Shown here: positions 2,286-32,342 of the stretch, piece after piece
How positions within the stretch are numbered: the stretch's first letter is position 1
How the letters are laid out: the number at the start of each line of letters is the position of its first letter
Origin: Gimesia fumaroli
GTDB taxonomy: Bacteria; Planctomycetota; Planctomycetia; Planctomycetales; Planctomycetaceae
Direction: 5' to 3'
Assembly: GCF_007754425.1 (NCBI RefSeq)
Contig: NZ_CP037452.1
Coordinates: 2,703,164-2,767,163 of the forward strand
Length of the DNA stretch: 64,000 nucleotides
Notes under the pieces: model-generated
Told to the model about the DNA's origin: nothing
The model's input: the letters and a program-made list of their open reading frames with translations, nothing else
The model's database searches: none
Position numbers and translations under genes: made by a program

Positions 2286-3698
2286 GTGCCCGGACAATCT
2301 AAATTAACAGCACGGAGCCGTTCCCAAGGGAAAGGCTCCGTTTCTGTTAAAGGCAAGCCTGAAAAGAAAAACGATTTCAAGGCCCCGCTGACCAATAATA
2401 TCAAAGATCCGACAGCGTTCTGGAGCGATTATTTTTCCAAACGGAAACCAGATCCCGCGCTTGTCAACGATTTGATTTTCAATTTACATCAGGCGGGCAA
2501 GCACGAGCATGTGATTGCCGCCATCAATGCGGCTTTGATTCACAATCAGTCACAACCCTGGATGTATGATGTGCTGGCTTTGTCGATGGAAATCGTCGGA
2601 CGTCCTAAACAGGAAATTCAGCGCGTCTTACTTTCACGCATCGATTTTTCCGCCACGGATGTTCCGAGCATGGTTTATTCGGCGGCTTACCTCTCTCGAT
2701 TTAATGCCGATCAACAGGCACTGCAGTTGTATCAGCAGGCTTCAAAGCTTCAGCCTGCCAGACCTGAGCCTTATGTCATGGGGTTACGATTGGCAGAGAA
2801 ACTGCAGGATACAGAAGCGATTCTGTGGGCAGCGACGGGCATCTTGACTCACGTGTGGGTGAAAGATTATCAGTTATTGCACAAAAAAGCGTTGAATGCG
2901 CTGGCCGATCTGGAGCAGTCATTCAATCAGTCAGGGCGAAAGGCCGAAGCAGCACGAGTCGTCTCCGCCAGAAAACAGGCTTTGGAGCAAGACTTAAAAC
3001 TGGAACTAACCTGGAACGGGGATGGTGATCTGGACTTGATTGTAGAAGAACCCCAGGGAACCGTCTGTTCGTTTGAGACACCATTAACCGCAGGAGGCGG
3101 CGTATTACTGAAGGACGGCTATGGTCCCAAACAGGAAAATTGCAAAGAAGAATATCTGTGTGCAAACGGTTTTCCAGGCACCTATGTTGTTCGCGTGCGA
3201 TATGTCTCGGGAAACATTGTCGGCCAGCGGGCTCGCCTCAAAGTAACACGCTATCGGGGATCAAAACATCCGATGGTGCAATCGAGGATTGTTCCTTTGG
3301 CCAAAGAAGATCAGTTAATCCCCATTGATCTTTCGAAAGGACGACGAAATAAAAAATCCGAGGTTGTACGACCCGCACCCAACTCGCAAAAAACGAGTCA
3401 GTTTCAAAATCGAATGCAGTTGCGTCAACCACTTTCAAAAGGTGCGCGGTCGGCACTCAAAGATTTTCGAGTGTCTCGACAAGTAGGGTTTTCAACTGGC
3501 CGACAGACGCCGTTTGTTACTGGAACCCAGAATGTGGGGGGCGTTGCCAATCAACCTGTGATTAGTGTTATTCCAGAAGGGATCAGCCTCTCGGGCTCGG
3601 CAGTCGTCTCGCCTGACCGCAGATATGTGCGGTTGTCTTTGTCACCTCAATTTACGAATGTGACGGAGATCTTTACATTCAGCTTTTTGCAGCCTTAA
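2286..3698 (+). CDS. TPR-like protein with C-terminal YfaP/DUF2135-like domain
   Basis: Protein of 470 residues if translated from the GTG at 2286. No good Shine-Dalgarno precedes this GTG, and the frame is open upstream to 2229, overlapping the end of the preceding gene. That makes translation as part of a frameshifted fusion plausible. Residues 45-200 are helical and TPR-like (PDPALVNDLIFNLHQAGKHE, SRFNADQQALQLYQQASKLQ). Residues about 235-330 form a beta domain with the signature WNGDGDLDLIVEEPQGT, which recalls YfaP/DUF2135 or bacterial pre-peptidase-like domains that bind at the cell surface. The last 120 residues are basic and of low complexity. It ends 17 nt from the convergent tsaD. 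The function is not known. Confidence 0.75.
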   Translation: MPGQSKLTARSRSQGKGSVSVKGKPEKKNDFKAPLTNNIKDPTAFWSDYFSKRKPDPALVNDLIFNLHQAGKHEHVIAAINAALIHNQSQPWMYDVLALSMEIVGRPKQEIQRVLLSRIDFSATDVPSMVYSAAYLSRFNADQQALQLYQQASKLQPARPEPYVMGLRLAEKLQDTEAILWAATGILTHVWVKDYQLLHKKALNALADLEQSFNQSGRKAEAARVVSARKQALEQDLKLELTWNGDGDLDLIVEEPQGTVCSFETPLTAGGGVLLKDGYGPKQENCKEEYLCANGFPGTYVVRVRYVSGNIVGQRARLKVTRYRGSKHPMVQSRIVPLAKEDQLIPIDLSKGRRNKKSEVVRPAPNSQKTSQFQNRMQLRQPLSKGARSALKDFRVSRQVGFSTGRQTPFVTGTQNVGGVANQPVISVIPEGISLSGSAVVSPDRRYVRLSLSPQFTNVTEIFTFSFLQP

Positions 3699-31335: not shown

Positions 31336-31363
31336 TTGCAAACGTTTCTGTATCTGGTATGAT
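31336..31363 (+). promoter_or_regulatory. Sigma70-type promoter of the RNA locus
   Basis: The -35 is TTGCAA (31336-31341), the spacer 16 nt, and the -10 TATGAT (31358-31363) is preceded by TGG (an extended -10). The start of transcription would be near 31370. No ribosome site or long frame follows; what follows is structured RNA. Confidence 0.75.
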
Positions 31364-31426
31364 ACGTTTTAAGAGTCGCACTCACAATCGTAGAGTGCAA
31401 GATTTAGTATCAGGCTCAAACTGATC

Positions 31427-31526
31427 TGTTCGCAGCATTGAGTTGCAGGTTCGAGTCCTGCCCTCGCCACATTGAGAATGTTTTTCTGGCGAGGTAGCCC
31501 AATGGCAGAGGTAGATGTCGCGAACA
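31427..31526 (+). tRNA. Circularly permuted tRNA-like module A
   Basis: The canonical tRNA parts are present in swapped order. First half: anticodon-stem strand GCATT (31435-31439), 5-nt variable loop, T stem GCAGG/CCTGC with loop TTCGAGT (31445-31461), acceptor strand CCTCGCC (31462-31468) and discriminator A (31469). Second half: acceptor strand GGCGAGG (31488-31494), T8 A9, D arm with GCC (31497-31499)/GGT (31510-31512) and the GG pair at 31504-31505, position 26 A, and anticodon-stem strand GATGT (31514-31518). Acceptor pairing is 7 of 7. In place of an anticodon loop, TGTTCGC (31427-31433) pairs with GCGAACA (31520-31526). CCA is not encoded. All segment lengths are those of a standard tRNA. 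Confidence 0.6.
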
Positions 31527-31596
31527 CAAATGAAGTTTAGATTATCACTCTAGACTCATTTGCACTGGTTGTTGTCTCGACTGCCGGAAGTAACTA

Positions 31597-31706
31597 CTCG
31601 AAAATGCGAGTTCGATTCTCGCCCCCTTCACTTATGTGTGCTAATCAAGCGTGTAATTGACGTTTGAAATCTTGAAGGGGTGGACTTAATGGTAAGGTCG
31701 TTCGAG
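31597..31706 (+). tRNA. Circularly permuted tRNA-like module B
   Basis: First half: strand CTCGAA (31597-31602), short variable region, T stem GCGAG/CTCGC with loop TTCGATT (31606-31622), acceptor strand CCCCTTC (31623-31629) and discriminator A (31630). Second half: acceptor strand GAAGGGG (31674-31680), then a D arm with GACT/GGTC or ACTT/AGGT pairing and the GG pair at 31691-31692, and strand TTCGAG (31701-31706), which pairs with CTCGAA. Acceptor pairing is 7 of 7 and the T stem 5 of 5. The variable region is only 3 nt and one extra base precedes the D stem, so it is a little less canonical than module A. No anticodon loop and no encoded CCA. Confidence 0.55.
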
Positions 31707-31773
31707 CGATAGATTAAACGAAGGCTTAAACGGATACTGTCAACGACCAACGACTGAAAGTCAGTGCATCCAC

Positions 31774-31815
31774 GCCCACCACGGCAAGGTTAGACCTGTG
31801 GTGGGCACTTTTTTT
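31774..31815 (+). terminator. Strong intrinsic terminator of the RNA locus
   Basis: The 9-bp stem GCCCACCAC (31774-31782)/GTGGTGGGC (31798-31806), with an inner AGGT/ACCT helix, is followed by AC and seven T (31809-31815). It ends 8 nt before the convergent endonuclease V stop. Confidence 0.92.
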
Positions 31816-31823
31816 ACAGCCAC

Positions 31824-32342
31824 TCAGGTTTCAGTTATTTCGTCGTCTGCTCTACAGATCTGGTCAACACGTTTGAGCAGCGTGGGGAAACGAAACGCTC
31901 CGTGCATCGTGGTGATTTTGCATTTTGCCTCGGAGAGTGAAATGCCGAGAGAAGTCACGTAGAGTGGATTCTGACTTTCTCCCCGATAGATGCGGGTTTC
32001 ATCGGGGGTATTCGCGAAACGAGATTTGGCGACACCGATGACAGGAATTTGCTCGTTCAGCTGGTGAAAGAGGTGCGCTCCCAGGCCGGGCCGTTGGTCC
32101 TGTCCCAGCGTAACGAAGCCGTCGATGACGATGGTTTCCAGAGGATGGTCAATGTCATGAATCAGTTCCAGCAGGCAGGGAAGTTCTCGTTTGAAAAAAC
32201 TGCCGGGTTCGTAAGGAGCGATCTGGGGAATAGTTTTTACCAGAGTTGCTTCAACAGCATCCGATTCCCATTCTTGAAACAAAATGCCAGCTACCTTCGC
32301 GAAATCATCGTCTCGGTAATGTACGTCGAGGACCAGTTTCAA
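31824..32342 (-). CDS. nfi: Endonuclease V-like protein
   Basis: Endonuclease V cuts DNA or RNA next to deaminated bases such as inosine. The family core is visible: LVLDVHYRDDDFAKVAG (first catalytic Asp and the Tyr wedge), YEPGSFFKRELPCLLELI with the catalytic Glu, VIDGFVTLGQDQRPGLGAHLF with the third acidic residue, and PVIGVAKSRF with the conserved Lys. At 172 residues it is shorter than the usual 210-230. The only in-frame start is a TTG at 32342, because a stop lies just upstream. It is convergent with the RNA locus. Confidence 0.83.
   Translation of the reverse strand: MKLVLDVHYRDDDFAKVAGILFQEWESDAVEATLVKTIPQIAPYEPGSFFKRELPCLLELIHDIDHPLETIVIDGFVTLGQDQRPGLGAHLFHQLNEQIPVIGVAKSRFANTPDETRIYRGESQNPLYVTSLGISLSEAKCKITTMHGAFRFPTLLKRVDQICRADDEITET

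Follow-up and report, generated by a model that had tools for sequence, protein, structure and literature searches.

Is the DNA between positions 31370 and 31815 of the window (the whole stretch of 64,000 nucleotides of Gimesia fumaroli that was analysed) an RNA gene, and if so, which kind of RNA does it encode? The preliminary description of this DNA had seen two permuted tRNA-like modules in tandem, and two such modules do lie there, at 31445-31512 (module A) and 31606-31699 (module B). Both follow the order T arm, 3' acceptor strand, loop, 5' acceptor strand and D arm (Table 1); in its predicted fold, each module amounts to the elbow half of a tRNA, made up of acceptor, T arm and D arm, in the order of the bacterial Y RNA-like family YrlA. 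The acceptor strands pair at 7 of 7 positions inside each module, as had been claimed, and at 5 of 7 positions across modules when G-U is allowed. The T loops read TTCGAGT and TTCGATT and GG is present in both D loops, in line with the TTCGANT and GG noted earlier. No anticodon arm is found inside either module, and ARAGORN calls neither a tRNA nor a tmRNA in the window. Two covariance models were built, R1 from 22 sequences of module A and R2 from 26 of module B; they score the window modules at 63.9 and 52.9 bits respectively, each window sequence being a training member of its model. Additionally, the predicted fold of the RNA stretch is more stable than those of all 100 dinucleotide shuffles (z = -3.67), and a module finder returned at least two modules in 48 of 72 real stretches, compared with 4 of 360 stretches after dinucleotide shuffling and a single one of 72 minus strands. 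The window RNA measures about 430 bases with its two modules, the family ranging from roughly 350 to 450 bases. A gene for an Endonuclease V-like protein (31824-32342, minus strand) is convergent with it.

Table 1. Positions of the features of the RNA locus and of the gene 5' of it, in window coordinates
Feature	Positions	Strand	Evidence and remarks
DUF7873 protein gene, 249 aa	30578-31327	+	Pfam PF25283, 349 bits; directly 5' of the RNA
Promoter-like site, TTGCAA-16-TATGAT	31336-31363	+	TG precedes the second hexamer; both hexamers also 5' of the RNA in congener L007
5' hairpin, GCACTC/GAGTGC	31378-31398	+	Predicted fold; readable in L007 too
X element, repeat AGxxTxAGxxTxAGxCTxA, 5' of module A	31399-31426	+	Pattern in 61/67 loci versus 11/67 reversed strings
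P1 5' strand, TGTTCGC	31427-31433	+	Encloses module A by pairing with 31520-31526; best flank helix in the window
Module A, T arm and 3' acceptor strand	T arm 31445-31461; CCTCGCC 31462-31468	+	Rfam YrlA match, R1 model, covariation
Module A, acceptor loop	31469-31487	+	Position 73 is A
Module A, 5' acceptor strand and D arm	GGCGAGG 31488-31494; D arm to 31512	+	YrlA match, covariation
P1 3' strand, GCGAACA	31520-31526	+	Flank-helix comparison
Y hairpin with 7-base loop TTATCAC (31542-31548), in the conserved stretch between the modules	31527-31562	+	Predicted fold and alignments
P2 5' strand, TGGTTGTTG	31566-31574	+	Partner 31741-31749
P3 5' strand, CTCGAA	31597-31602	+	Encloses module B with 31701-31706
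Module B, T arm and 3' acceptor strand	T arm 31606-31622; CCCCTTC 31623-31629	+	R2 model, covariation in 16/16 pairs
Module B, acceptor loop, 44 bases	31630-31673	+	
Module B, 5' acceptor strand and D arm	GAAGGGG 31674-31680; D arm to 31699	+	Covariation
P3 3' strand, TTCGAG	31701-31706	+	Flank-helix comparison
Conserved TTAAACG motif	31726-31732	+	TTAAA[CT]G in 53/67 loci versus 1/67 reversed strings
P2 3' strand, CAACGACCA	31741-31749	+	Partner 31566-31574
3' hairpin, inner loop AGGTTAGACC, then a T run	31774-31806	+	Conserved inner loop, of GGN[TA]A type elsewhere

Pairing of the modules is maintained by compensatory change. In the alignment of module A (A5, which leaves out the near copy L017, L024 with its bulged T stem and L028 with a 267-base insert), 99.1% of cells are paired and 12 of 15 pairs show changes on both sides; the covariation score of 0.685, compared with 0.188 after shuffling, is reached by none of 500 shuffles. 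The alignment of module B (A6, which leaves out L017 as well as L005 with its 108-base loop) has 98.1% of cells paired, changes on both sides in 16 of 16 pairs and a score of 0.902 compared with 0.281 (0 of 500 shuffles reaching 0.902). These high pairing values are partly due to construction, because the modules were placed by hand or by a finder that requires pairing, but this bias is answered by the shuffles, by slid registers of both alignments (39-53% of cells paired), by strands taken from other loci and by the search from the protein alone described below. Full 7/7 acceptor pairing is found at 22 of 23 loci for module A and 27 of 27 for module B when both strands come from the same locus, against 24 of 506 and 13 of 702 combinations respectively when strands are swapped between loci. 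A covariance search of relatives, named beforehand as a check, brought compensatory changes in the acceptor, T, D and outer helices. The suspected tRNA mimicry is supported by these results, and 31370-31815 is very probably an RNA gene.

The kind of module is already known, because its order matches that of bacterial Y RNA in the YrlA model alignment. In a scan with all of Rfam, YrlA (Y RNA-like, RF02553) was the best match for 31417-31542 (38.4 bits, E 2.5e-6); this stays well below the family's gathering score of 69, and the Ro-linked modules of the same order of bacteria attain 46.6 at best. As candidates for the whole RNA, known tRNA, tmRNA and Rfam families were rejected, none being found at threshold by ARAGORN or the Rfam scan. 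YrlA is described as combining a stem with a domain that is similar to three arms of tRNA (acceptor, D and T), and as a single module of about 90-150 bases by the size given in the same source (PMC8394870). Both window modules have the T arm, acceptor, D arm and closing flank helix of a YrlA module, and share with YrlA the permuted order and the lack of an anticodon arm, module A having it as its best Rfam match. On the other hand, the window RNA carries two modules in about 430 bases within a larger conserved RNA with other core motifs and a 3' hairpin, its partner gene encodes DUF7873 and not Ro60/Rsr, and the Ro-linked stem motif is absent. We file it as akin to Y RNA in the build of its heads, yet not as a member of YrlA. 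The suggestion that bacteria lack a counterpart is not supported, since YrlA has the same order and the genome itself carries Ro-linked Y RNA-like modules.

Outside the modules, several elements are conserved (Table 1; counts of core motifs, outer helices and NCCA refer to 67 loci, with L017, L082, L110 and L116 dropped). The strands of the outer helices pair better within their own locus than with those of other loci in 49 of 67 cases for P1, 60 of 67 for P3 and 57 of 66 for P2. In the congener L007, P3 (CTTGAA/TTCAAG) and P2 (TGATTGTTG/CAACAATCA) both show compensatory changes; the P2 stretches of the window have a different best ungapped helix (TGCACTGGTT/AGTCAGTGCA) that outscores P2, and for this reason the P2 of the window rests on L007 and on reading by eye. 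The motif [AGT]ATC[GA]A is present in 53 of 67 loci compared with 10 in reversed strings. A 3' hairpin with a GGN[TA]A-type loop occurs in 75 of 95 loci, compared with 3 of 95 mononucleotide-shuffled ones (L181 is missed by the pattern, though its hairpin is readable by eye), and because its inner loop is conserved in relatives the hairpin is more than a terminator. The good promoter and strong terminator seen at first were recovered in part: there is a promoter-like site, the scan giving one further such site on the minus strand and shuffles averaging 0.6, and the 3' hairpin followed by T's is plain, although a consensus scan returned 0 terminators. As read from the aligned loci, the family core is composed of the X repeat, the Y hairpin, P2, module B closed by P3, TTAAACG and the 3' hairpin, and module A is usually present as an insertion between X and Y. 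Loci without module A (L050, L055, L069, L105, L116 and L119, by eye) keep X, Y, module B and the 3' hairpin, so that module B and the core look like the essential unit and module A like a second head open to loss. In two variants that lack module A (L026 and L181), a plain hairpin seems to occupy its place.

The RNA is linked to the DUF7873 gene across distant replicons. In the phylum of the window 19 DUF7873 places were located (6 from a sample of 150 genomes of the order and 13 from 392 genomes of the phylum, the samples overlapping), with two modules at 15 (module A of L024 read by eye, with a bulged T stem), module B alone at L019 and L026, none at the weak match L025, and L027 truncated by a contig end. 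Among the 11 annotated phage or plasmid loci first fetched, both modules lie directly 3' of the gene in 9 (one of them, L033, with an imperfect T stem), L039 has module B alone, and in L038 (Microcoleus phage My-WqHQDG) X, A, Y, B and the 3' hairpin are found 1.85 kb downstream, behind an inserted gene (L038:3684-4961) whose product we take to be HNH-type and IscB-like. Four more distant phages of Vibrio and Rhizobium (L181-L184) have one clear module, B. No RNA was found near DUF7873 in L041, its copy L042 or the weak match L025, and no module was matched in L002, a partial relative from a cyanobacterial bin. In none of the 11 annotated phage records where modules adjoin the gene is an RNA annotated at the modules; 8 of them are blank there, and L033, L181 and L184 have small hypothetical reading frames over part. 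Two further observations concern individual viral loci: in Rhodococcus phage NiceHouse, a Band-7 (SPFH) gene (L031:3874-4746) closely follows the RNA and a single tRNA gene, and the 267-base insert of the viral contig L028 (4002-4268) lies in the acceptor loop of module A, no Rfam match being listed for L028.

An independent test of this linkage used viral sequences chosen by protein. R1 and R2 had been built before this test, and IMG/VR was searched with the DUF7873 protein profile only, which gave 528 candidate stretches with 433 relatives, the best 80 of the 433 being kept. The RNA models were then applied to 78 of these best 80 loci (two copies of a training locus were omitted), counting matches on the plus strand with E<=0.01 and a start within 900 bases of the gene end. 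By this bare count, at least two module matches were found in 63 of 78 loci, one in 13 and none in 2. L093 and L116 were rescored as having one module because their second match falls on ordinary tRNA genes, which gives two modules in 61 of 78, one in 15 and none in 2; without seven repeat loci the figures are 57, 13 and 1 of 71, and one locus of the set (L073) is close to the training phage L030. DUF7873 is, by this linkage, the probable protein partner of the RNA. Among 82 neighbourhoods chosen by DUF7873, no other family of reading frames of at least 90 aa appears in more than 6, frames overlapping DUF7873 aside.

In the genome of the window and in G002 the gene-RNA pair adjoins PEPCK, with DUF7873 86.7% identical and the RNA stretch 79% identical over 485 aligned bases; in ten other congeners PEPCK is present and a DUF7873 match is absent. 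This patchy presence in the genus, together with the abundance in phages, suggests that the pair was spread by phages. For the protein itself, the AlphaFold model (mean pLDDT 85.9, pTM 0.60) gave no match at E 0.001 in a PDB fold search, and the PDB sequence search gave no solved relative (best E 0.48). The defence, PHROGs and NCBIfam libraries gave no match either, and a viral model library gave one, an unnamed phage protein of 275 residues (E 5.7e-4, probability 0.91, TM-scores of about 0.2). A literature search on DUF7873 found no paper. Whether DUF7873 could be a hidden Ro protein was considered and rejected, as Pfam gives DUF7873 only and the PDB fold search no match.

The bases around the acceptor hint at how the heads may be handled. 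Of 67 A and 67 B modules, 29 and 20 respectively encode NCCA immediately behind the 3' acceptor strand, compared with 4 of 43 ordinary tRNA genes on these stretches; it is lacking in most modules (38 of 67 A, 47 of 67 B), and no CCA is found in the acceptor loops of the window (ACAT and ACTT). U(-1) precedes the 5' acceptor strand in 36 of 67 A and 40 of 67 B modules. At position 73, A modules mostly have A (50 of 67) and B modules mostly U (43 of 67). RNase P is described as pairing with RCCA and preferring U(-1) in a passage of PMC9433436. The encoded N73-CCA together with U(-1) suggests handling by tRNA enzymes, perhaps RNase P. To our knowledge, YrlA is not known to be cut. In L093 a complete tRNA-Thr gene (3368-3440) is nested inside the acceptor loop of module A (acceptor strands CCCCACA/TGTGGGG by eye), as if this loop were meant for excision, and in 10 of 95 loci (L055, L057, L067, L082, L090, L095, L105, L116, L119 and L183) ordinary tRNA genes stand between module B and the 3' hairpin. 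In our own comparison, the D arm of head A appears to resemble that of tRNA-Leu.

The whole is best read, with somewhat better than even confidence, as a Ro-independent and mainly phage-borne RNP composed of DUF7873 and a two-headed tRNA-mimic RNA. DUF7873 would bind the conserved non-tRNA core and form a stable RNP in place of Ro60, and the two heads would mimic tRNA and thereby dock to, or occupy, a tRNA-recognising enzyme of the cell. Two less certain steps are that RNase P might open the acceptor loop at the 5' acceptor strand, leaving heads that end in N73-CCA, and that the RNA might function as pieces joined by helices. In phages, tRNA machinery would be redirected or protected during infection. 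A bolder form, put forward tentatively and with the balance against it, would add a further class of tRNA-like effector RNAs to tmRNA and Y RNA, in which a phage-borne and Ro60-independent DUF7873 RNP would, through RNase P and 3' trimming, come to carry two split N73-CCA heads, possibly chargeable, that are shown to the translation or RNA-decay machinery, head A with A73 and a tRNA-Leu-like D arm and head B with U73. It is also quite possible, if short of an even chance, that the heads are never cut and that the RNA is a closed-loop scaffold whose folded mimics tether or gate an enzyme (PNPase, for example) on behalf of DUF7873. The nearest relative is so described, the basal stem of YrlA holding Rsr and its tRNA-like domain binding PNPase (PMC8394870), and acceptor loops are often short (median of 7 bases in A and 15 in B over 71 loci), but the NCCA, U(-1) and A73/U73 biases and the tRNA gene inside one acceptor loop fit cutting better.

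Rather unlikely, though combinable with either a cut or a closed mechanism, is a role as anti-defence decoy, in which the heads would absorb host toxins or defence enzymes that cut or modify tRNA and DUF7873 would stabilise them. A role as competitive inhibitor has been proposed for YrlA in the portion of PMC7790460 that deals with it. The viral setting would suit such a role, as 433 of the 528 IMG/VR candidate stretches encode a DUF7873 relative and 8 of the 12 annotated phage stretches fetched have at least two annotated tRNA genes. However, the modules have no anticodon arm, which is the usual target of tRNA-cutting nucleases, the pair is also found on bacterial chromosomes, and DUF7873 is unmatched in the defence library.

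The position of the RNA, which often starts within about 100 bases of the DUF7873 stop codon and on the same strand, would also be expected of a 3' UTR control element, that is, the tail of the DUF7873 mRNA regulating through DUF7873 or a tRNA-binding protein. This is unlikely in view of the promoter-like site that the window RNA has of its own, the tRNA genes nested inside some loci and the other gene that separates DUF7873 from the RNA in L038.

The Ro-linked Y RNA-like modules of the same order of bacteria allow a direct comparison. The only TROVE (Ro60) match in the genome of the window is at C1:246252, 2.49 Mb off (the window starts at C1:2703164), and Ro-linked YrlA-like modules lie in front of it. 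At least one YrlA-like module was found in 13 of 13 Ro loci (the genome's own and the 12 best of the order sample, where 44 of 150 genomes have a TROVE match). At the genome's own Ro locus (L001:130-555, G000:C1:244881-245306), two clear YrlA-like modules and a weak third precede the Ro gene, each flanked by CGACTGC and TTCGTCG, and a long inverted repeat (L001:629-678) lies between the modules and the gene; in the congener locus L163 four modules are matched. Such Ro-linked clusters (L001, L163 and others of the order) likewise hold several modules in tandem beside the Ro gene, but most of their modules own a Ro-type stem motif, whereas here two modules share one architecture and a DUF7873 gene. 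The stem motif ACTTCGTC is present in 14 of 24 Ro-linked modules (10 of 24 also lack it) and in 0 of 71 DUF7873-linked loci, and TTCGTC in 17 of 24 Ro-linked modules compared with 0 of 71 after module A and 2 of 71 after module B; either flank was scanned for Ro-linked modules, and the downstream flanks of A and B for DUF7873 loci. Of the six DUF7873 genomes in the order sample, three (G002, G114 and G128) do not belong to the group with a TROVE match. It could be argued that the RNA is a Ro60-dependent Y RNA which drifted from the Ro gene and binds a Ro protein encoded elsewhere, DUF7873 being incidental, as its module is of YrlA type and the genome does hold a TROVE gene; the missing stem motif, the three genomes just named and the very frequent linkage to DUF7873 make this very improbable. 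The RNA looks rather like a relative of the bacterial Y RNAs that does without their usual protein. A related system is possibly present in Listeria phages, for which PMC12282133 reports non-coding RNAs of very high abundance close to a gene predicted to be Rsr-like and suggests that they are Y RNAs.

Searches of whole genomes show how the models can be misled, since adjacent ordinary tRNA genes can imitate a module. R1 matched 26 of 392 genomes at E<=1e-7, of which 11 have DUF7873. Among 9 examined of the 15 without it, the matches in L144, L148, L150, L151 and L156 are adjacent ordinary tRNA-Leu genes, L154 corresponds to the Ro locus of G008, a single ordinary tRNA lies nearby in L155, and L146 can be read as a pair of Y RNAs whose stems are YrlA-like. 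Two model matches in the genome of the window (7132443-7132888 and 3790751-3790981) sit in tRNA clusters. That the window RNA itself is a decayed tandem array, the leftover fragments of ordinary tRNA genes side by side, has next to no probability and was rejected even though junctions of adjacent tRNA genes mimic a module and match the models, as covariation of the acceptor strands within modules over distant loci contradicts it, there is a conserved core, and no tRNA is called in the window.

Two other permuted systems are close enough to be compared. Permuted tmRNA has the same local order around the acceptor, and a cut in the acceptor loop of the present modules would likewise yield a two-piece tRNA-like end. 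The two-piece form of tmRNA is treated in parts of PMC10085705 and PMC3978253. The window RNA differs in that the Rfam tmRNA models give 18.4 bits against a threshold of 84 and 7.7 against 47, ARAGORN finds no tag and there are two heads; the combination of a tRNA-like domain with a tag-encoding part that defines permuted tmRNA is absent. Circularly permuted tRNA genes of algae and archaea, from whose transcripts RNase P and tRNase Z are thought to remove the loop according to the relevant part of PMC3978253, also have the 3' half before the 5' half with the acceptor loop in between. They yield a complete tRNA with anticodon after circularisation, whereas the modules here are without an anticodon arm and ARAGORN finds no complete cloverleaf. 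Permuted tRNA genes as closest kin, the view taken at first, are probably the wrong comparison, YrlA being the best match. The window RNA lies 3' of a DUF7873 gene and has module B with the core motifs, as the proposed family is defined.

The DUF7873 partner gene, the distribution in phages and the occasional absence of module A were not part of the preliminary description. No description of the gene-RNA pair was found in the literature searched, which dealt with Y RNAs and with tRNA-like RNAs in tandem or permuted form, though a prior mention is possible; one paper reportedly notes a new tRNA-like RNA associated with Band-7 proteins. As far as we can see, this is a conserved RNA family undescribed as a whole but with a known building block. 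It suggests that tRNA mimicry of the Y RNA type is not bound to Ro60, as the same module is used by another protein family together with a larger RNA that has two heads, and this use spans the phylum of the window, actinomycete replicons and phages of Gordonia, Pseudanabaena, Rhizobium, Klebsiella and Vibrio. DUF7873 gains a first functional lead and annotation a missing RNA family, and the gene-RNA pair offers a testable system for the way in which phages may exploit tRNA-recognising enzymes.
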